This document shows positions 7,366-38,392 of a stretch of 47,348 nt of DNA, one piece after another. Source of the DNA: Thiotrichaceae bacterium (GTDB lineage Bacteria > Pseudomonadota > Gammaproteobacteria > Beggiatoales > Beggiatoaceae); the NCBI GenBank assembly GCA_011391085.1, contig JAABRD010000039.1, positions 1-47,348 on the forward strand. The letters run 5' to 3'. Position numbers and translations under genes: made by a program. The notes below the pieces were generated by a model, which worked only from the letters and a program-made list of their open reading frames with translations, ran no database searches and was not told the DNA's origin. How positions within the stretch are numbered: position 1 is the first letter of the stretch; every line of letters starts with the position of its first letter.

Positions 7366-7505
7366 TCAGTTAAGGAATTGAAGTGGCGAAAGAATTAAAA
7401 TAGCAGGGGACTAGAGGCTTTAGCCGGTAGGGGGGCTTTGCGATTTCAATTATCTTCTGCACCCTCCGGCTAAAGCCTCTAGTCCACCTCCGTTTTAATT
7501 TCTGG
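7366..7505. repeat. Inverted repeat, GGACTAGAGGCTTTAGCC family B
   Basis: Arms GGACTAGAGGCTTTAGCCGG (7408-7427) and CCGGCTAAAGCCTCTAGTCC (7466-7485) enclose a variable centre. Outer flanks (CAGTTAAGGAATT at the left, TTTTAATTTCTGGGAG at the right) are shared with copies at 29916, 32075 and 38328, so the full unit is about 140-160 bp. Confidence 0.8.
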
Positions 7506-8332: not shown

Positions 8333-10501
8333 TTATTTCACCACCGGTGTTTTAACCTGGGAAATTCGTTTGAGACGATTTAGTAATTCTTCCCAATCGA
8401 CTTTTAGATTATATCCAATGACATCAATTCTTGGCAAGCCTCCGCCTTTGACAATGTAATAACCAGTGGCCGCCGTGGCCGCCCCGCGCATTTGGCAAAT
8501 GCCGTTTTGAAACACACAGCCCCAGCCAATTTGGTCATAAGAGAAGTTTTCAAAGACGCGCAAGACGCTTTGGGAAAGGGCATTGACGACGCCACCGCTA
8601 CCACCTAAATTAGACAGGTTGTTAATCGCTTGTTGGCTAATTTTTTTGGGCAACGTGTTGTCCTTGGGAGTGGCAAAATAGGCGTCAAAGGAGACCGGTT
8701 GCCAATTGATTAGGTGTAATTTATGTACATAACCAGATAATTGCCCTTGAATGTCGCCAAACTCGGTCACTTTGGTTAACGTTTTCAGGTTGAATTTATC
8801 AATGTCAATGTCTGCTTGCAAATCTGACACCGTATCAAAGAGAAGCGTTAATTTGGGCACGGTCACTTCGCCCTCAAACACTTGAAGTTTTAAATTGCCT
8901 TTGAGGTTTAACTGTTTGTTATGATAGACAATGGGTGGAATCTCTCCAGAAATTTGTCCATTTAAAGTAGGTCCTCCTAACGTGGTACTGAGAGAGTGTA
9001 GCGAAATCGGTTGTAATTTGCCACGTAATTCCCACTTCATGTCTTCCTTTCCCAAATTCTCTAAATCAAATTTCTCTAAAACAATGGCGCCGTCCAGAAA
9101 GGGTTGTGACCACGGGGCTAAGAGGCGCAGACGAGGACCTGAAAAATTGGCTTGCAATTGACTGGCCCCTAACTTTACTTTTGACATGACATAAGCACCC
9201 GACCAGCGTAATTGAGAAGGTAACTCGGTGCGCTGACTATGCCAGTGAATGTTACCGTTTAAGTCTTTCCAACCATAGCTTTGGTCTTTTGCAGCAATAC
9301 TCAGATGATACAGATTGGCTACCACCGCATGAGTCTCGTTATCCCAGTCCCAGCGGCCATCTAGCATTCCAGACCACTCGTGATTTTCACCCAGCCAGGC
9401 TTGTAAGTAATGGGTATAAAAGGCTTTTAAGGGACTTTGACGCAGTTCGAGTGTCAAGTGATTGACCGCAACTTTGTCACCCAAGGTCACGTCACCAAAA
9501 CCTTGCAATCGAATGACTTGGGGATGCGTATAAGCATACGAGTGAATCTGTAATTGTGACGGTTGCCAAGTCAAGTCAATGGCCACCGTCACGGGTGAAT
9601 GGTCGCCGACAGTGGCATAAATCGGGTCACTGTAAATGTCTCCACTGGTGAGAGAGAGAGTGCTGGTGATATGCCATTCGCTAACTTTTTGGCTGTCCGT
9701 CGCAGGTGCAAGTGGAACTGGATTGGCCTCTGTTTTGGCTACGGTGGATTTCGTTTTACTCTTAATAGATGCCGGTGCCTTCGGCGGCGTCTTCCCTTTG
9801 GAGTTATCCAAAGAGGTTTGACGGGCTTGAAGGGTCAACTTCGCGGTCACATTTTCGCCGGCTTGAGACCCAGCACTGTTGGCATATTTTAAGCCAGTCG
9901 TCTCGCCTTCTAACTGCACTTGTTGAAGAGTGTCTTGACCAGCTAAAGTGATTTTTAAGAGATTGATGTTCCCACCCAAACTGACAGTAGGTAACTCGAT
10001 AAAAGTGGCTATTGAGGTTAACCATTTTTCTAAATCGATACTTTTCAATTGTAACTCCGCTTGCCAACCTTTGGCAGTAGATTTGGCTTGTGCCGTGATG
10101 TGTCCACCTGCGAAAGTCCATTTAGTGATACGGAAGTCGAGATGGTGTTGATTCAACCAGTAAGTAAAAGATAACACCAGCGGAGATTGGTCTAACCAGC
10201 CTTGTTCTATCTGTAATTGCGCCTGTGGACAAGTAATTTGGTCTGCGGTATATTTCACGGACGCGCAGGCGAGACGAAGTTTCTGCAAAGGTTGTTTCAG
10301 GGTAGGCAAAGTCAGGGAGGCTATGTCTAACGTCAAACTCATATTCTTCTCATTGAATCCTTGCCAGTGGACGACGACGCCGTCGGCTTGCCAGCCGGTG
10401 GCAGAGAGAGAACCGAATTGTAGGGTGAGACTGTCTATGGCAAACGCCTGAGTGACCACACTGCACCAGCCGATGATTAGCAAAATGAATTTGTTGTGCA
10501 T
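8333..10501 (-). CDS. YdbH-like AsmA-superfamily intermembrane protein
   Basis: 722 residues from the ATG at 10501, where a signal peptide/anchor begins (MHNKFILLIIGWC, ending AFA). The open frame extends 68 codons further upstream, but that part is translation of an intergenic palindrome and is rejected. The body is the repetitive beta-strand pattern of AsmA/TamB/VPS13-like lipid-transfer proteins. The C-terminus has the YdbH signature: TLLFDTVSDLQADIDID, then GQLSGYVHKL, GYYIVKGGGLPRIDVIGYN and VDWEELLNRL. YdbH is one of three paralogous bridges (with TamB and YhdP) that carry phospholipid to the outer membrane. A basic/Ala/Pro/Lys linker at about 245-285 looks like an insertion. Confidence 0.82.
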   Translation of the reverse strand: MHNKFILLIIGWCSVVTQAFAIDSLTLQFGSLSATGWQADGVVVHWQGFNEKNMSLTLDIASLTLPTLKQPLQKLRLACASVKYTADQITCPQAQLQIEQGWLDQSPLVLSFTYWLNQHHLDFRITKWTFAGGHITAQAKSTAKGWQAELQLKSIDLEKWLTSIATFIELPTVSLGGNINLLKITLAGQDTLQQVQLEGETTGLKYANSAGSQAGENVTAKLTLQARQTSLDNSKGKTPPKAPASIKSKTKSTVAKTEANPVPLAPATDSQKVSEWHITSTLSLTSGDIYSDPIYATVGDHSPVTVAIDLTWQPSQLQIHSYAYTHPQVIRLQGFGDVTLGDKVAVNHLTLELRQSPLKAFYTHYLQAWLGENHEWSGMLDGRWDWDNETHAVVANLYHLSIAAKDQSYGWKDLNGNIHWHSQRTELPSQLRWSGAYVMSKVKLGASQLQANFSGPRLRLLAPWSQPFLDGAIVLEKFDLENLGKEDMKWELRGKLQPISLHSLSTTLGGPTLNGQISGEIPPIVYHNKQLNLKGNLKLQVFEGEVTVPKLTLLFDTVSDLQADIDIDKFNLKTLTKVTEFGDIQGQLSGYVHKLHLINWQPVSFDAYFATPKDNTLPKKISQQAINNLSNLGGSGGVVNALSQSVLRVFENFSYDQIGWGCVFQNGICQMRGAATAATGYYIVKGGGLPRIDVIGYNLKVDWEELLNRLKRISQVKTPVVK

Positions 10502-10528
10502 AAGTGAAATGTCTCTGGAAGGGGTAAC

Positions 10529-10760
10529 GTAGGGTGCGTCCCACGCACCATTTTCAGGTAGTGATGCAATCTGGGTGATATTCATAAAGTTGCCCTCACC
10601 CCCGGCCCCTCGGAGAGAGGGCGTGGGGAGACAGGCGGCACCCGTGGTTTTCTCCCCTCTCCCCCTGGGAGAGGGGCCGGGGGAGAGGGTAAACATATCA
10701 CACACATTGTATCACTACCCATTTTCAAAATTGCACGGTGGTGCGTGGGACGCACCCTAC
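10529..10760. repeat. Nested palindromic element (families D and E)
   Basis: Outer 22-bp perfect arms (GTAGGGTGCGTCCCACGC...) at 10529-10550 and 10739-10760 enclose a second inverted repeat (GTAGTGATGCAAT at about 10558, ATTGTATCACTAC at about 10707). That in turn encloses GC-rich CCCTCACCCC / GGGGGAGAGGG arms. One element has evidently inserted into another. It separates sirB2 from the YdbH-like gene and contributes the false N-terminal extension of the latter. Confidence 0.8.
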
Positions 10761-10773
10761 CCATTATTGTCTG

Positions 10774-11148
10774 TTACCATTCCAACGGATTCGCCAACCG
10801 TTTCAAAGCCACCGTGACCATGTAAGAAAATATGCCCATTGCCCCTAACCAAGCCGTGACCCGAATCGTTTTGGTCTTGCCGCGCCGGAGTGCGATGTTA
10901 CCCAAGATGATATATAGCAACAGTCCAAAAAATTTGGCCGTTAGCCAACCGTCTGTGAGAGGGTATTGATGCAGATGGTAAGCTAAAGTGATGCCACTGG
11001 CTAATAAGACCGTGTCAATCAGATGAGGGGCAATTTTGACCCACCATTTTTGTAACCACGGGCTGTTTTGCATCATCCACAGGCCGCGGAAGAAAAAGGA
11101 GGTAAAGGTCAGGATAACACAGAATTGATGAAGTTCTTTGATGGTCAT
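10774..11148 (-). CDS. SirB2 family membrane protein
   Basis: A 124-residue protein with four predicted membrane helices: residues about 7-27, 40-60, 70-90 and 96-118. It matches the SirB2 pattern: MTIKELHQFCVILTFTSFFF, then PHLIDTVLLASGITLAY and LTAKFFGLLLYIILGNIALR. SirB2 proteins are small inner-membrane proteins of unknown biochemical function, named for an effect on Salmonella invasion-gene expression. The ATG at 11148 is preferred over a GTG five codons upstream because AAAGAG is correctly spaced before it. Confidence 0.85.
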   Translation of the reverse strand: MTIKELHQFCVILTFTSFFFRGLWMMQNSPWLQKWWVKIAPHLIDTVLLASGITLAYHLHQYPLTDGWLTAKFFGLLLYIILGNIALRRGKTKTIRVTAWLGAMGIFSYMVTVALKRLANPLEW

Positions 11149-11251
11149 TGTCTCTTTACTCACCAGTTATTTTTAAAGACTACAGCATTATAGAAAGTAA
11201 GGCACCTTACGCACCTCTTTAGTTTGAATCACAAATTGCCACAGATGATAC

Positions 11252-11371
11252 CGATTTCGGGTAGTGATGCAATGTGGGTGATATTCATAAGAGTTGCCCT
11301 CACCCCCGTAGGGAGAGGGGCCGGGGGTGAGGGTAAAAATATCACCCACATTGCATCACTACCCGATTTCG
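11252..11371. repeat. Inverted repeat, GTAGTGATGCAATGTGGG family E
   Basis: 31-bp perfect arms (11252-11282, 11341-11371) enclose a GC-rich CCCTCACCCCC / GGGGGTGAGGG hairpin. The same family is nested in 10529-10760 and recurs at 35672-35783. A palindrome of family F (AGAAACTAAGTTTCT / AGAAACTTAGTTTCT) follows at 11421-11453. Confidence 0.85.
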
Positions 11372-22531: not shown

Positions 22532-22672
22532 CCAACGCGCTTAACTGAATGGCATTGAAGCTAACGCCTGTGGTAGGTACCCCCAGATGTTAAGAACGGG
22601 GACACCCACAGGCGTTAGCCTCTAGTCCACCCAGGTTTGGAGGAGAGAAGTGATAACCCACTTCAAAGAGAC

Positions 22673-28207: not shown

Positions 28208-29869
28208 CTAAAATCCAAACCCCACCACCGTCACATCATCTTGTCTTTCATTTTCTCCTTGATATTCTCGAAACGCTTTCAGTAAGGAGGCGTCTTGTTC
28301 TATCACCGGGTAATGGCGGTGTTCTAACAGCCAGGCTTGAAAGCGTTTATTTCCTAGTGGCAATCGCTGCGGTCCACCTAATTGGTCGATCAAACCGTCG
28401 GTGGCTAAATAAAAGGTCATCCCCGGTTCTAGTGGTAACGTATGTGTCGTGAAGTTGAAGTTGACATTCGACCGCTTGTAACCTAAATTTTGCTTATCTC
28501 CTTTAATCATCTTCACCTGGTCATGGTGCAGATAATAAAGTGGCAGTTTGGCCCCGGCGAAGAGTAATTGTTGTGCTTGCGGTTTGACCAGACAAATGGC
28601 AGCATCTAAGCCGTCATCGGAACGGGCTTGTTTGGTGTCTTGTTGCAACGAGGTTTTGACTAACCAGCTTAATCGCTGGAGGATGTCGGCGGGTTGATGA
28701 CAACCTTCATCTTGGATAATGCGTCGCAATTGCGTCGTGGCTATCATGGTCATAAAGGCACCAGGCACACCATGGCCTGTACAATCCAAGACAGCAACCA
28801 GAAAGTCTGTTCCAAATCGTTCAAGGTATAACATGTCGCCACCAACCACATCTCTGGGTTGCCAGATGAAAAAATTGTCGGGCAGGTAAGTTTTCACGGA
28901 GTCGAGGTTAGGCAGTAAGGAGGACTGAATGAGTTTCGCATATTGGATACTTTGCATAATCTTATTATTGATGGATTCAATCACTTCACGCGCCTGTTTT
29001 TCTCGATTCTCGCGTTCCAACCGTTCTGTAATATCTTGGAAAGCGGTAATCGCATAGGTGATGTGACCTTGTTCATCAAAGACGGGAGTCGCCCAAAATT
29101 CTATTGGAATCGTTTTATCGGCTTGCTGAATCTCCAGATTATGGGCACTGGCCTTTTCCCCGGCTAGGGCCCGTATGAGTGGATGCTGGGTATTGGGATA
29201 GGGTTCACTCGTGTCGACTTTCGACAGGTCTGGCCAGGAGAAGGTGAGGGGAGAAATTTGTTTGTCACCCAGTAGTTGTTGGGCCACACGATTTGCGTAA
29301 AAGGGCGAACCTTTGGCATCTATCACAAAGACGCCGACGGGCATGGCTTCTAAGAATTGGGTTAAGCGACTTTCGTTGTCGCGTAATTCCTGATTTCTCG
29401 TTTGTAACGTTTTGAGTGACGCTTCCAATTGTTGTTCAACCTTTTTCCGTTCGTTAATTTCTTGGGTGAGGGCGAGATTCGCGGCTTCTAATTGGGCGGG
29501 ACTGGGGGCGTCCAGGGCGATAGGTATCAAGGGGACTAGCATGAAGCTAAACACGTATAAGGAGATTACGGCATTCATAGCTTTGACGGTGCCTCCTAAC
29601 CAGTAGGCTGGGTACCAAATTGTAATCGCTTCTAGTAGATGAGTGGTGCCGCAGGTGACAAATACGAAAAAGGTGCCGATTAGTAAAGTGACCGTTTTGA
29701 CCGGCAAATCTTTTCTACCGTGCGTAAAGTACACAATGGCACCGGCCACTAGGTAATAAGCGGCAGTGGTGAGAACATCTGAGATAAAATGTAGCCAAAC
29801 CACTTCTGGCTTCCAAGTGTAGCAATAGCCATGGGGTATGAAGTCGGTTGCAAAAAAGTTTTCTAACAT
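28208..29869 (-). CDS. Membrane PP2C/SpoIIE-type phosphatase with PAS and ethylene-receptor-like sensor (SiaA-like)
   Basis: 553 residues. Residues 20-115 form three to four membrane helices with the ethylene-receptor pattern: ISD (Asp31), AYY (Tyr38), FVTCGTTHLLE (Cys73, His77). These align with ETR1 Asp25, Tyr32, Cys65 and His69, the last two being the Cu(I) ligands. ETR1 Pro36 is not conserved. A coiled coil (125-165) and a PAS domain (about 168-285) follow. Residues about 300-553 are a SpoIIE-type Ser/Thr phosphatase with the metal-binding acids in VVGGDML (Asp345), LDCTGHGVPGAF (Asp362), ATDGLIDQ and QDDVTVV. It lies last in a cluster with siaB and siaC, where the phosphatase SiaA is expected, so it likely dephosphorylates SiaC. 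Confidence 0.82.
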   Translation of the reverse strand: MLENFFATDFIPHGYCYTWKPEVVWLHFISDVLTTAAYYLVAGAIVYFTHGRKDLPVKTVTLLIGTFFVFVTCGTTHLLEAITIWYPAYWLGGTVKAMNAVISLYVFSFMLVPLIPIALDAPSPAQLEAANLALTQEINERKKVEQQLEASLKTLQTRNQELRDNESRLTQFLEAMPVGVFVIDAKGSPFYANRVAQQLLGDKQISPLTFSWPDLSKVDTSEPYPNTQHPLIRALAGEKASAHNLEIQQADKTIPIEFWATPVFDEQGHITYAITAFQDITERLERENREKQAREVIESINNKIMQSIQYAKLIQSSLLPNLDSVKTYLPDNFFIWQPRDVVGGDMLYLERFGTDFLVAVLDCTGHGVPGAFMTMIATTQLRRIIQDEGCHQPADILQRLSWLVKTSLQQDTKQARSDDGLDAAICLVKPQAQQLLFAGAKLPLYYLHHDQVKMIKGDKQNLGYKRSNVNFNFTTHTLPLEPGMTFYLATDGLIDQLGGPQRLPLGNKRFQAWLLEHRHYPVIEQDASLLKAFREYQGENERQDDVTVVGFGF

Positions 29870-29915
29870 GAGAAATGTTTCCTAATAGGTGAAAAAATAG
29901 CGAGTCCTTTTAAGT

Positions 29916-30070
29916 TAAGGAATTAAAGAGGCCCAAGAATTAAAATTGTGGTGGACTAGAGGCTTTAGCCGGTAGCGGGTCCCCGCGATTTCAATAGTGT
30001 TCCGCCCCCCACCGGCGAAAGCCTCTAGTCCACCTGTATGTTAATTTCGGGGGCGGTTTTCCTTGTGCAT
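29916..30070. repeat. Inverted repeat, family B
   Basis: GGTGGACTAGAGGCTTTAGC and its inverted arm (GCGAAAGCCTCTAGTCCACC) at about 29951-30034, with outer flanks TTAAGTTAAGGAATTAA and TTAATTTCGGGGGCGG. It separates the phosphatase from the cyclase gene. Confidence 0.8.
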
Positions 30071-30085
30071 TATTATCCTAAATTT

Positions 30086-32017
30086 TTACATCCGTTCAAG
30101 CCATTGTTGTTTCAAATACCGATGACTTAAATGAACTCTCACTCGCGCTAATACCTCTTCCCGTTGGAACGGTTTCGTGATATAGTCCACGGCGCCTACT
30201 TCAAAACCTTTGACTTTAGATTCTGTTTCGGTTAAAGCGGTGATAAAAATCACTGGTATATCTTTGGTATGGGGTTGTGCTTTCAATCTTTGACAGGTTT
30301 CAAAGCCATCCATGCCAGGCATCATCACATCTAATAAAATTAAGTGAGGAACGTGGGTCTCCACCATGGTCAAGGCGGTTTGACCATCGTAGGCGACTAA
30401 TACTTCAAACTGGTTTGCCGTTAAAATATAAGATAATATTTTGATATTTAATGGCGTATCATCCACCACCAGAATTTTAGCCGCCTGTGGCATCGTCATT
30501 CCTAATATTTCCTGGCAACGGTTCAGGTAAATTTGTGCCACCTTATCCATTTGATTTTGTTGCCAAATTTTTTCAAACAAGGGGTGGGCATCGGCAAATT
30601 CTCCAGAATGATACTGTACGAAGCCAACTTCAAAGTCTTCACGGGTTTTATCTTTCCAGGCAATCATTTCAGGCGAGTCGCTGTCATAGATTTCATAAAT
30701 AGTCACCTCCTCCGTTTTGCCCTTGACTTTCACCACGTCTATTACCCGAATATGATACTGCATAGGGTCTGCCAACTTCAGATAGGTGTGTTCGGTAATC
30801 AGAAGTGGGGTCTGGTAAATTTTGGTCAGTCCTTCTAATCTGGAAGCCAAATTGACGGCATCGGATAGAACCGTGCCATCCATGCGATTTTGACCACCGA
30901 TAGTGCCAAGTACCATCTGACCTGCATTCAGACCAATACCAATTTGAATCTGCGGCAAGGTGGAACGATCTAGCAGTTGATTATATTTGGTCAAAGTCTT
31001 CAACATGGTAATCGCAGCCGTCACGGCGTCATCGGCATTGGTTGGAAACACGGCCATAATGGCATCGCCAATATATTTGTCAATGATTCCATGATGATTC
31101 AGAATAATCGGTTCCATCTGTCCTAAATAATTATTAATAAAGTCAAAAATTTCTAGTGGTCGCATCGTTTCTGAGATACGGGTGAACTCGCGAATATCCG
31201 AAAACAAAATCGTCATGTCTTTTTCAGTTTGGTCACCTAATTGAACTTCAACAATGCTATTTTTGTTTAATAAACTTAAAAATTGACGTGGCACAAAACG
31301 TTCGTAAGCCTTATTCAATTGTGCCAATTCTCGTGTAAATTGCAACCGTTCCACTTCCGCCCGTTTCCGTTCCGTGATGTCTTGAAAGACGGCAATGGCA
31401 TAAGCAATGTTCTTCTCGGCATCAAAGATGGGGGTGCCCCACACTTCGATGGGAATAATCTTGCCAGGTTGATGAATTTCTATATCATCGACACTGGAGA
31501 GTTTACCTTGCAAGGCTTGGACAATGGGTTGACGTTCTGGAGGATATAACTGCGTGGTACCAGCCAGATAGGCTTGATAAACTTCTGGTAAGGCCGTGGT
31601 ATTGGCAGACGGAATGAGTCCTTTGCCAAGAATTTGCTGGGCTTTTTGATTGGCGTAGTAAGGAAAACCATTCGCATCTAGCACAAAGACGCCGACGGGA
31701 ACGGCATCTAAAAATTGGGCCAGGCGTTCCTCCGTAGCCCGCACTGCCTCTTCGGCCTCTTGTGCTTTGTGTTGTAATTCCAAATTACTGGATTGAAGTC
31801 CTTCCGTGCGAGTCGTCAACTGACCTTGTTGCAGGTCACCCATTTTCACCAGTAGTTTGGTTTGTTTGAGTAATTTTTTGTAGTCTTTGACGAGACGTTC
31901 ATACTCTTGCAAAACTTGCAAAAGAGGCATCTCCTGGTGCTTAAATTGTTCTACCACGTTGGTAGCTTTTTCTAATACCGCTTCCTCGGTTTGAAACAAA
32001 GTGGATTTTTCAGCCAT
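30086..32017 (-). CDS. PAS - class III nucleotide cyclase - receiver protein
   Basis: 643 residues. An N-terminal coiled coil (15-100), PAS (about 100-218), class III cyclase catalytic domain (about 265-445), a helical stretch, and a C-terminal receiver domain (513-635; Asp519/Asp520, phospho-acceptor Asp563, Thr593, Lys615). Cyclase residues: metal-binding Asp274 (LFSDIREFTR) and Asp318 (GDAIMAVF), base-selecting Lys314, transition-state Asn389 and Arg393 (DAVNLASRLE). The second base-selecting position is Thr382, where classical adenylate cyclases have Asp; Lys/Thr is the class IIIb pattern, so ATP to cAMP is most likely. It lies between siaC and the phosphatase, where SiaABCD systems have the diguanylate cyclase SiaD. 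Confidence 0.9.
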   Translation of the reverse strand: MAEKSTLFQTEEAVLEKATNVVEQFKHQEMPLLQVLQEYERLVKDYKKLLKQTKLLVKMGDLQQGQLTTRTEGLQSSNLELQHKAQEAEEAVRATEERLAQFLDAVPVGVFVLDANGFPYYANQKAQQILGKGLIPSANTTALPEVYQAYLAGTTQLYPPERQPIVQALQGKLSSVDDIEIHQPGKIIPIEVWGTPIFDAEKNIAYAIAVFQDITERKRAEVERLQFTRELAQLNKAYERFVPRQFLSLLNKNSIVEVQLGDQTEKDMTILFSDIREFTRISETMRPLEIFDFINNYLGQMEPIILNHHGIIDKYIGDAIMAVFPTNADDAVTAAITMLKTLTKYNQLLDRSTLPQIQIGIGLNAGQMVLGTIGGQNRMDGTVLSDAVNLASRLEGLTKIYQTPLLITEHTYLKLADPMQYHIRVIDVVKVKGKTEEVTIYEIYDSDSPEMIAWKDKTREDFEVGFVQYHSGEFADAHPLFEKIWQQNQMDKVAQIYLNRCQEILGMTMPQAAKILVVDDTPLNIKILSYILTANQFEVLVAYDGQTALTMVETHVPHLILLDVMMPGMDGFETCQRLKAQPHTKDIPVIFITALTETESKVKGFEVGAVDYITKPFQREEVLARVRVHLSHRYLKQQWLERM

Positions 32018-32074
32018 GGGGGTTCGTAAGTATTGACGGTTGAAGAAACTGAGTTTTTTAAAGGACAGGGAACT

Positions 32075-32235
32075 GTCATTAAGTTAAGGAATTTAACTGT
32101 AAAGGAAAAAAGTCCCCCGAAATTAATCGCCAGGTGGACTAGAGGCTTCAGCCGGCTGGCAGTAGGCATCACCCCCTACCCCAAAACTGAGGGTCGCCTA
32201 CCGCCAGCCGGCTAAAGCCTCCACTCCACCGTACC
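32075..32235. repeat. Inverted repeat, family B
   Basis: CATTAAGTTAAGGAA, then AGTCCCCCGAAATTAA, then GGTGGACTAGAGGCTTCAGC with a matching inverted arm (GGCTAAAGCCTCCACTCCACC) up to about 32230. It separates the cyclase gene from siaC. Confidence 0.75.
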
Positions 32236-32248
32236 TTGTTGACACCTC

Positions 32249-32632
32249 TCACCGTTTAACCAAGTTAAAAGTCAGCACCTCTAAATCCTCTTTAAATTCT
32301 TCCCCAAATTCTTCGGCACTGTCGTTGTCTGCCACGTAAATCCAGTTCACGGTAATGTTGTTACCTGCTGTGGTAGCCTCTTCTAAACGGTCAAATAAAT
32401 CTAATAACATTTTGGAGGAACTGCTGTTAAAATAGATAAGTTCAATATTTACCGTGAGGTGTTGATCGGAAGTGGCTTGGGCAAGATAATTGGTTATCCA
32501 AGTGAACAACGGTTCTGACATTTGGCCCACATTTTCGGGGTAAGATTCCCCCTTCATAGAAAGCACGTTGGTGGCCGCCTCAAAATAGATTTCTGGCGTA
32601 TGCTTAGTCGCTTCGATTTTCCAAGTGTCCAT
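32249..32632 (-). CDS. siaC: SiaC family regulatory phosphoprotein (DUF1987)
   Basis: 127 residues matching SiaC/DUF1987: TPEIYFEAATNVLSMKGESY, PLFTWITNYL, then VNIELIYFNSSSSKMLLDLF. In Pseudomonas, SiaC is phosphorylated by SiaB on a Thr in the equivalent loop, dephosphorylated by SiaA, and in the free form binds and activates the cyclase SiaD. The equivalent site here would be Ser70 (first Ser after Asn69). AAGGAGG lies just before the ATG and overlaps the siaB stop region, with only 13 bases between the genes, so siaB and siaC are co-translated. Confidence 0.87.
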   Translation of the reverse strand: MDTWKIEATKHTPEIYFEAATNVLSMKGESYPENVGQMSEPLFTWITNYLAQATSDQHLTVNIELIYFNSSSSKMLLDLFDRLEEATTAGNNITVNWIYVADNDSAEEFGEEFKEDLEVLTFNLVKR

Positions 32633-32645
32633 CGATTCAGCCTCC

Positions 32646-33194
32646 TTAGATGGTGGTTTTCAACGAAAAAAATGAGAATTGATTCTCCACCGGTTGAAAA
32701 TTAAATTCAACGGGTGTGACCGAGTGGCGGGCGAGTTCAATAAAACCCAAGCCGGCCCCTTTGCTACTCGCCGGGGCTTCCTTTTTACGTTGTTCTTTGT
32801 AGTAACGTTTGAGTTCTTCCTTGTTCATCTGTTGTAATCTCGTCAATTGGTCACGCAACGTATCAACTACCTCAGCGTCAATGAAGTTGCCACATAAAAC
32901 GTAATAATGTTGGTGTTCATAACCAACTACGATGATGCCACTTCTTAACATGGCCTTATCAGACCTGTCTGGGGGGACTTTTTCTGCGGAGTAGTAGATG
33001 ATATTTTGGGCTTGTTCTACAAACATGGAAAACACTTTGAGAATGGTAGAAGAACTAGCGTCTTCCTGCTTCATCTTGTTTTTCAGGGTGTCACCAATTT
33101 CCACTAGGAGTTCTTGTGACAGTGGGCCGCTGAAGCAAAAAAAGATACCGCGTTGGTTCAGTTCCTTTTTGAATTGGTACAGATTGTCTAGCAT
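32646..33194 (-). CDS. siaB: SiaB family protein kinase (DUF6272)
   Basis: 182 residues. The family is a GHKL/HATPase-like Ser/Thr kinase that phosphorylates SiaC. Matching segments are RGIFFCFSGPLSQELLVEIG, then VFSMFVEQAQNIIYYSAE (the helix with the Glu/Asn of the ATP site), GIIVVGYEHQHYYVLCGN and GAGLGFIELAR (glycine-rich lid near 147). GGAGA precedes the ATG. First gene of the cluster siaB-siaC-cyclase-phosphatase. The pairing with siaC is the strongest evidence for the identity. Confidence 0.85.
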   Translation of the reverse strand: MLDNLYQFKKELNQRGIFFCFSGPLSQELLVEIGDTLKNKMKQEDASSSTILKVFSMFVEQAQNIIYYSAEKVPPDRSDKAMLRSGIIVVGYEHQHYYVLCGNFIDAEVVDTLRDQLTRLQQMNKEELKRYYKEQRKKEAPASSKGAGLGFIELARHSVTPVEFNFQPVENQFSFFSLKTTI

Positions 33195-33337: not shown

Positions 33338-33400
33338 GGGACTAAAGGCCTTAGCCAAGTGGCAATGGCATGTCACCGGCGTAAGCCTCTAGTCCACCTT
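33338..33400. repeat. Short inverted repeat, family B variant
   Basis: GGACTAAAGGCCTTAGCC faces GGCGTAAGCCTCTAGTCC across about 25 bases, upstream of uvrD. Confidence 0.65.
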
Positions 33401-38329: not shown

Positions 38330-38392
38330 GTTAAGGAAAACAGTCCCCCGAAATTAACATACAGATGGACTAGAGGCTTTAGCGGGTAGTGT
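38328..38392. repeat. Left half of a family B repeat
   Basis: TTAAGTTAAGGAAAACAG, AGTCCCCCGAAATTAA and GGACTAGAGGCTTTAGC are in the order seen in complete copies, but the inverted right half is replaced at about 38388 by the lead-in of the next 22-bp array. The array element has therefore inserted into, or replaced, half of this repeat. Confidence 0.7.

Follow-up and report, generated by a model that had tools for sequence, protein, structure and literature searches.

We describe a four-gene row on the minus strand of a 47,348-nucleotide stretch of Thiotrichaceae bacterium DNA (contig JAABRD010000039.1 of assembly GCA_011391085.1; hereafter the window) that probably encodes a SiaABC-type partner switch in which a class III, predicted adenylyl, cyclase takes the place of the diguanylate cyclase SiaD as output. 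Open reading frames (ORFs) and Pfam matches give the row order as siaB, siaC, a gene for a protein with PAS, class III cyclase and receiver domains, and a gene for a membrane PP2C phosphatase. The siaB-like kinase gene (32646..33194, minus strand, 182 aa) matches DUF6272 (E 3.9e-45) and has E60/N64 and GAGLG motifs, which are common to both SiaB paralogues of this genome. It lies upstream of siaC at a spacing of 13 bp; the siaC-like gene (32249..32632, minus strand, 127 aa) matches PF09345 (E 5.1e-42), and its product is 36% identical to Pseudomonas aeruginosa SiaC in alignment. The effector (30086..32017, minus strand, 643 aa) combines, on the same strand, a putative SiaC-docking stalk (residues 6-75, 31793..32002, motif YKKLLKQTKLLVKMGDLQQ), a PAS domain (residues 97-219, 31361..31729, E 2.4e-10), a Guanylate_cyc domain (residues 263-439, 30701..31231, E 1.8e-21) and a Response_reg receiver (residues 515-627, 30137..30475, E 2.1e-31). 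Because Pfam finds no GGDEF domain in this protein, the module is of the SiaABC type and not SiaABCD. A first-pass annotation of the window had listed the same gene set, with its 13-bp spacing, single direction and cyclase receiver domain, all of which ORFs and Pfam confirm. It had also tied the switch to a cAMP (cyclic AMP)-type cyclase, a proposal now supported by a SiaD-type stalk on the cyclase, by the restriction of that stalk, genome-wide, to siaC-linked cyclases, and by recurrent linkage of the two genes elsewhere.

SiaABCD of P. aeruginosa (PMC7647112, PMC8457831) shares with the window a SiaB-type kinase, a SiaC of family PF09345 and a PP2C phosphatase, together with an effector whose N-terminal helical stalk has the interface Asp and Gln that are kept here. 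The window differs in that its output is not GGDEF but a class III cyclase that also carries PAS and receiver domains, and in that its phosphatase, encoded by the last gene of the row, has ETR1-like and PAS domains instead of being of the HAMP type. The stalk, of the LF..E type, shows a single recognisable motif, and the phosphosite residue of its SiaC is Ser (S70, codon 32423..32425, minus strand, placed by alignment and computed from the ORF) where P. aeruginosa has T68. According to the crystal structure of the complex, the long N-terminal helix of SiaD carries the motifs to which SiaC binds. SiaC T68 bonds to SiaD S82 and Q86, its phosphorylation blocks binding, and D83 and Q86 of SiaD are interface residues (PMC8457831).

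To compare the cyclase stalk with those of SiaC-linked GGDEF proteins, we used a profile of 11 stalks of siaC-adjacent GGDEF proteins, with zero cyclases among them; its rows were chosen by eye after the cyclase stalk had been seen. The window cyclase scores 36.3 bits, the best of 2000 shuffles 13.2. The cyclase beside a second siaC of the same genome, on contig C108, reaches 37.9 bits and a Thiomargarita cyclase (L010) 41.2; no shuffle of the 2000 reaches the score of any of the three (C, L and G labels denote contigs, loci and genomes, respectively). The same profile was run on the N-termini of the 1632 ORFs of 200 aa or longer in the loci collected up to that point, including those of the training proteins if they reached this length. 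All that score above 5 bits adjoin siaC or siaB or share their gene row, and the best other scores 4.6. A blind test was made on 78 phylum loci fetched later: 55 of 938 ORFs (at least 200 aa) score at least 20 bits, 53 of them on the siaC strand within 3.5 kb and the other two (L183, L201) divergent beside siaB. In the reverse direction, with a profile of 17 cyclase stalks, 53 of the 54 N-termini from canonical SiaD proteins scored higher than any shuffle that was scored (5160 out of 5400). When the two stalk families were aligned with hhalign, the probability was 93.6 and E 2e-7. At the level of sequence, these comparisons show homology between the cyclase stalk and the stalks of SiaC-linked GGDEF proteins. 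AlphaFold2 predicts helices at cyclase residues 9-24 and 33-105, the second continuing into the PAS domain. When solved structures were searched by phmmer with the cyclase N-terminus, the matches were weak throughout (best E 0.36) and fell on unrelated and designed proteins, the SiaC-SiaD entry 7e6g not being among them.

Residues D61 and Q64 of the window cyclase are the counterparts of SiaD D83 and Q86, and the S82 equivalent is Ser in the Thiomargarita cyclase. Covariation between SiaC interface columns and the stalk core exceeds that of random column sets (p 0.014 for 155 pairs, 0.008 for 108 stalk-rich pairs), also in non-redundant pairs (p 0.012, n=99; p 0.011, n=76). In each of the four runs, the top two pairs join the stalk column that corresponds to SiaD Y85 to L107 and to I71 of SiaC. 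This covariation is suggestive of an interface, with phylogeny still contained in the signal, and that is the first of several points that count against our interpretation. The S82 equivalent is Gly in the window cyclase (G60) and in that of C108, and one docking motif is recognisable in the cyclase stalk versus two in SiaD. A comparison of eleven helix-side SiaC positions found the P. aeruginosa contacts I71, M75, R103 and L107 replaced by S, L, S and F in the window; the C108 SiaC differs from P. aeruginosa at I71 and D79. The AlphaFold2 model is of a single chain (mean pLDDT, the predicted local distance difference test, 71.7; predicted template modelling score 0.45; pLDDT 56-82 over the stalk helix). 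Finally, an earlier profile of ten Pseudomonas and one Burkholderiaceae SiaD stalks, superseded by the more diverse 11-row profile, matched the window weakly (E 0.21). By profile, the cyclase nevertheless has the N-terminal stalk of a SiaD-type output, with one motif and a Gly at the S82 position.

How such a module could work is taken, by analogy, from SiaD, including the direction of control, activation by free SiaC. The phosphatase would receive a signal by way of its ETR1-like and PAS domains. SiaB would phosphorylate SiaC at S70 and the phosphatase would strip the phosphate; once free, SiaC would dock on the helical stalk at the N-terminus of the cyclase and stabilise the active dimer, cAMP would rise, and SiaB would reverse the activation. 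The PAS and receiver domains of the cyclase would be further inputs, the receiver one from a phosphorelay. In this scheme we infer the binding of SiaC to the stalk, the activation by free SiaC, the signals and the product, and the output of the switch is here probably cAMP.

A different arrangement, which we regard as unlikely though the best of the alternatives, is that SiaC, once docked on the stalk, serves as a brake or scaffold, holding the cyclase inactive or near the membrane phosphatase, and that the receiver and PAS domains mainly switch the enzyme. The cyclase does possess its own PAS and receiver domains, and the direction of control is invisible in sequence. However, short stalk-cyclases of 346-352 aa with no other recognised domain lie beside siaC in three loci (L206, L208 and L228; Pfam was run on L206), so the stalk can be the sole input there. 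In SiaD, moreover, binding activates the enzyme (PMC8457831).

Returning to activation of the cyclase by SiaC through its stalk, we examined how specific this stalk is within the window's genome (completeness 99.92). PF09345 finds two siaC genes, in the window and on contig C108, and DUF6272 finds those two loci plus a weak third on contig C11. The C108 locus (L006) has the order PP2C phosphatase, siaB, siaC, cyclase, the cyclase occupying the place that siaD has in siaABCD. Between the window and C108, the cyclases are 84% identical, SiaC 39% and SiaB 37%. The class III cyclase domain has 21 matches in the genome, and the 17-row stalk profile matches solely the two siaC-adjacent cyclases (7.0e-23 and 1.3e-22); the next match, at E 0.85, is on a contig with no class III cyclase match. 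The stalk is therefore restricted to 2 of 21 class III cyclases, both beside siaC (p 0.005). A profile of 11 canonical SiaD stalks gave one match in the genome, at E 0.21. The first-pass annotation had counted a GGDEF protein elsewhere, co-occurring with this siaB and siaC in all relatives, against its proposal; the two stalk profiles find no further stalk protein in the genome. Contig C11 carries a third, divergent module (L007:8715-11160) with a PAS-GGDEF protein, a DUF6272 protein and a STAS-like protein of weak SiaC similarity (E 0.003). We rejected it as a source of SiaD, as its GGDEF protein is unmatched by the stalk profiles.

The association extends to relatives. Across the phylum, siaC (E 0.001) is found in 67 of 398 genomes at 84 places, 78 of which were fetched irrespective of the neighbouring gene (left out were two of G000 and one of G162, which the locus set already contained, and weak or cut-off places in G493, G425 and G530). 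All nine class III cyclases detected in these 78 stretches adjoin siaC and have the stalk; eight genomes in four families outside the window's class encode them. Within the family, class III cyclases adjoin siaC in G000 (two), G770, G771, G772, G773, G783 and G765; in G765 a stalk-PP2C gene sits between siaC and the cyclase. Over all loci there are 19 class III cyclases beside siaC; 9 of these, belonging to the window's genome, its family or Thiomargarita, do not count as independent cases. The stalk is in the called ORF of 18, and in the nineteenth (G783) it precedes the called cyclase start within one continuous open frame. It is found in 4 of 11 non-adjacent class III cyclases, these four loci having been fetched because the stalk was present.

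Whole-genome counts bear on the alternative that treats the stalk as a generic signalling coiled coil, with siaC merely near the cyclase and SiaC serving another target. Among 42 family genomes, 14 have siaC and stalk, 5 siaC alone, 5 stalk alone and 18 neither (siaC E<1e-10, stalk E<1e-5). Stalk genes thus do occur in 5 of 23 family genomes without siaC, as a generic element would, but they occur in 14 of 19 with it (Fisher p 0.001). Within the class, siaC is present in 10 of 369 genomes and a stalk match (E 0.01) in 21, including all 10 siaC genomes. Some of these siaC genomes contributed rows to the profile, which makes their recall partly a given but has no bearing on the rarity in the other 359. 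At most 16 candidates were scored per genome. Of those 359, 11 match, which again speaks for a generic coiled coil; ten do so weakly, in the range of the three siaC genomes with weak matches (G089, G121 and G162; 2.7e-4 to 0.0065), and G177 alone strongly, with two stalk-histidine-kinase genes. A strong stalk (E<1e-10), on the other hand, is found in 7 of 10 siaC genomes versus 1 of 359 others, all 55 high-scoring phylum ORFs lie near siaC or siaB, and the remaining 19 class III cyclases of the window's genome have no stalk. We consider this alternative quite improbable.

Docking of SiaC on a dedicated stalk nevertheless has to accommodate exceptions, which pull in the other direction. Five family siaC genomes have no stalk match (G753, G766 and G779-G781). 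Stalk-PAS-cyclase-receiver genes occur with no adjoining siaC in G756, G758 and G759, which have siaC elsewhere in the genome, and in G761, which has no siaC match; in G757 a stalk-cyclase is split over two ORFs with no siaC beside it. Stalk genes are found in G177, G768, G769 and G775 without a siaC match, and in G776 with siaC on a different contig. At 22 of the 78 phylum siaC places no same-strand effector was recognised, two of these having a divergent stalk gene. The conservation of linkage asked about by the first-pass annotation does hold, though not absolutely: the order siaB-siaC-cyclase is kept in relatives and recurs in other families, with exceptions such as G756, G758, G759 and G761. 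The stalk genes of siaC-less genomes (L135:6973-7926 and 9905-11260 in G177, L172:7063-9102 in G761, L175:1904-3574 in G775, L179:7099-7989 in G768, L180:6899-7789 in G769) may have lost their partner or have a different partner protein.

The catalytic domain points to cAMP. Its closest solved relative is CyaB of P. aeruginosa (PDB 3r5g, E 3.7e-27), likewise a class III catalytic domain, and the positions of Asp, Lys, Thr, Asn and Arg in the two match in alignment. CyaB itself belongs to the membrane (MASE2) cyclases and is not known to be governed by a partner switch. Residues D274, K314, D318, T382, N389 and R393 of the window cyclase are invariant across 15 aligned stalk-cyclases. We take the two metal-binding Asp, the Lys/Thr adenine pair and the Asn/Arg to be the adenine-type set of class III cyclases, and the window cyclase has this signature in full. 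So do 14 of the 19 siaC-linked class III cyclases (the window, C108 and 12 others). In the other five (L157, L211, L245, L247 and L249), the adenine-pair Lys is N, A, G, N and A, respectively, and L211 and L249 also have no Asn. The product of these Lys-less enzymes may be other than cAMP, which counts against our interpretation. The L247 cyclase additionally carries a PilZ domain. The window's genome has eight matches to the cNMP (cyclic nucleotide monophosphate)-binding domain, seven over the cut-off, and receivers of cAMP are therefore plausible. That the switch is degenerate, or the cyclase inactive or making another product, so that no cAMP signal results, is very improbable: the product is unreadable from sequence alone and the five Lys-less enzymes make it seem that linkage does not conserve product identity, but the residue set in 14 of 19 (with the roles assumed above), the relationship to CyaB and the cNMP-binding domains argue otherwise.

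The origin of the C108 arrangement was addressed with trees of SiaB and SiaC, made by quick searches with SH-aLRT (Shimodaira-Hasegawa-like approximate likelihood ratio test) support only. In a tree of 116 rows, the window groups with Thiomargarita (support 100) within the family clade, and C108 falls in a set of 11 rows of which the other 10 have GGDEF effectors (98). A 192-row tree under a different model recovers the set of C108 (96), and a group of 61 GGDEF rows plus C108 (99); its starred branches force at least seven changes of the state 'cyclase'. The very divergent L170 and L101, a copy of L078, were left out of this tree, and its effector labels were set by hand for L107, L149, L150, L157, L162, L169 and L245. 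Because SiaB and SiaC of C108 nest among GGDEF-linked rows while its cyclase is 84% identical to that of the window, the simplest reading is an effector swap, in which a cyclase copy would have replaced siaD in a siaABCD-like operon.

The outputs found beside siaC are diverse. A SiaC scan of relatives' contigs, confined to the best 80 of 299 relatives (79 loci, 80 siaC genes), found a GGDEF effector at 68 of the best 80 siaC rows, which is not a census; the remaining loci have other enzymes with similar N-termini. At the 78 phylum places, with effectors called on the same strand within 3.5 kb or as a GGDEF gene directly after siaC, we count 22 GGDEF, 22 GAF-HD-GYP-type, 9 class III cyclase and 3 histidine kinase effectors. 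The HD-GYP-type effectors, equal to the GGDEF effectors in frequency, are roughly 680 aa long, have the stalk, and combine it with GAF and HD-GYP-type domains; they are found in L202, L209, L219 and 19 further loci among L182-L259. Pfam was run on three of these proteins, the other 19 being assigned by similarity to one of the three, and on seven cyclases of the phylum loci. Breakdown of cyclic di-GMP (c-di-GMP) through such proteins would be expected to come under a SiaC switch. Two Chloracidobacterium loci (L030:8389-9579 and L031:8387-9577), in which no siaB was detected, have a stalk-Ser/Thr protein kinase gene immediately after siaC. Further siaC-adjacent stalk fusions are to a PP2C phosphatase (L105:6991-8001), a CheA-like protein (L103:5748-7907), a hybrid histidine kinase (L008:2855-4954) and a simple histidine kinase (L017:8447-9457). 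In Sulfuricella (L045:3404-4190), a tandem siaC pair precedes a stalk-GGDEF gene. No fusion of SiaC to a stalk or output domain was found among the listed ORFs, and visual inspection of two long siaC frames revealed no further domain.

Six output kinds are thus observed: GGDEF, class III cyclase, GAF-HD-GYP type, histidine kinase, Ser/Thr kinase and PP2C. We are inclined to think, with rather less assurance than for the cyclase module itself, that SiaC is a general switch and the helical stalk of about 70 residues a portable socket before at least six kinds of output, which are swapped between modules as at C108. The discussion of PMC8457831 suggests in general terms that proteins of the SiaC family modulate adjacent proteins. 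The HsbA-HsbD and BgrV-BgrR pairs named there are alike in that a STAS-fold protein controls a nucleotide cyclase by partner switch; they differ in acting on a diguanylate cyclase and in using a STAS protein, outside the SiaC family, as the switch. In the literature searched, which most subscription journals lie outside, we found neither a SiaC-linked class III cyclase nor DUF1987 with adenylate cyclase.

The SiaA-like phosphatase gene (28208..29869, minus strand, 553 aa), the last of the row, encodes ETR1_N, PAS and SpoIIE/PP2C domains (Pfam; SpoIIE E 1.3e-22). Its ETR1-like N-terminus (29513-29803) contains a C-x3-H motif, CGTTH, which we take to resemble the copper ligands of plant ethylene receptors. 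The PAS domains of the cyclase (31361-31729) and the phosphatase (29021-29353) are 51% identical over 120 positions, and their regions are detectable as DNA repeats. The cyclase PAS may sense a cue like that of the phosphatase PAS. Gaps of 231 bp (siaC to cyclase) and 216 bp (cyclase to phosphatase) separate the later genes, each with a palindromic repeat pair found by repeat search (32133..32230 and 29950..30034, respectively), and co-transcription of the whole row is plausible. The palindromes belong to an element resembling a repetitive extragenic palindrome, GGTGGACTAGAGGCTTNAGCCGG, with nine matches in the window at up to 3 mismatches versus 0 in shuffles (7405-7488, 22609-22631, 29950-30034, 32133-32230, 33376-33398 and 38364-38386); it is present also on contigs C108, C11 and C3. 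The row is flanked by a UvrD-type helicase gene on the opposite strand and a gene for an AAA-ATPase-like protein (Pfam), which look unrelated to the module.

If the cyclase module works as proposed, cAMP-type signalling would come under a kind of partner switch first understood from a diguanylate cyclase. If SiaC is indeed a general switch, one partner-switch chemistry would drive c-di-GMP synthesis, cAMP synthesis, probably c-di-GMP breakdown, or kinase cascades. The presence of the stalk would then be a rule by which targets of other SiaC-family proteins could be predicted, and the suggestion of PMC8457831 that these proteins generally modulate their neighbours becomes testable. A portable protein-protein switch of this kind might also lend itself to fusion with other dimeric enzymes.

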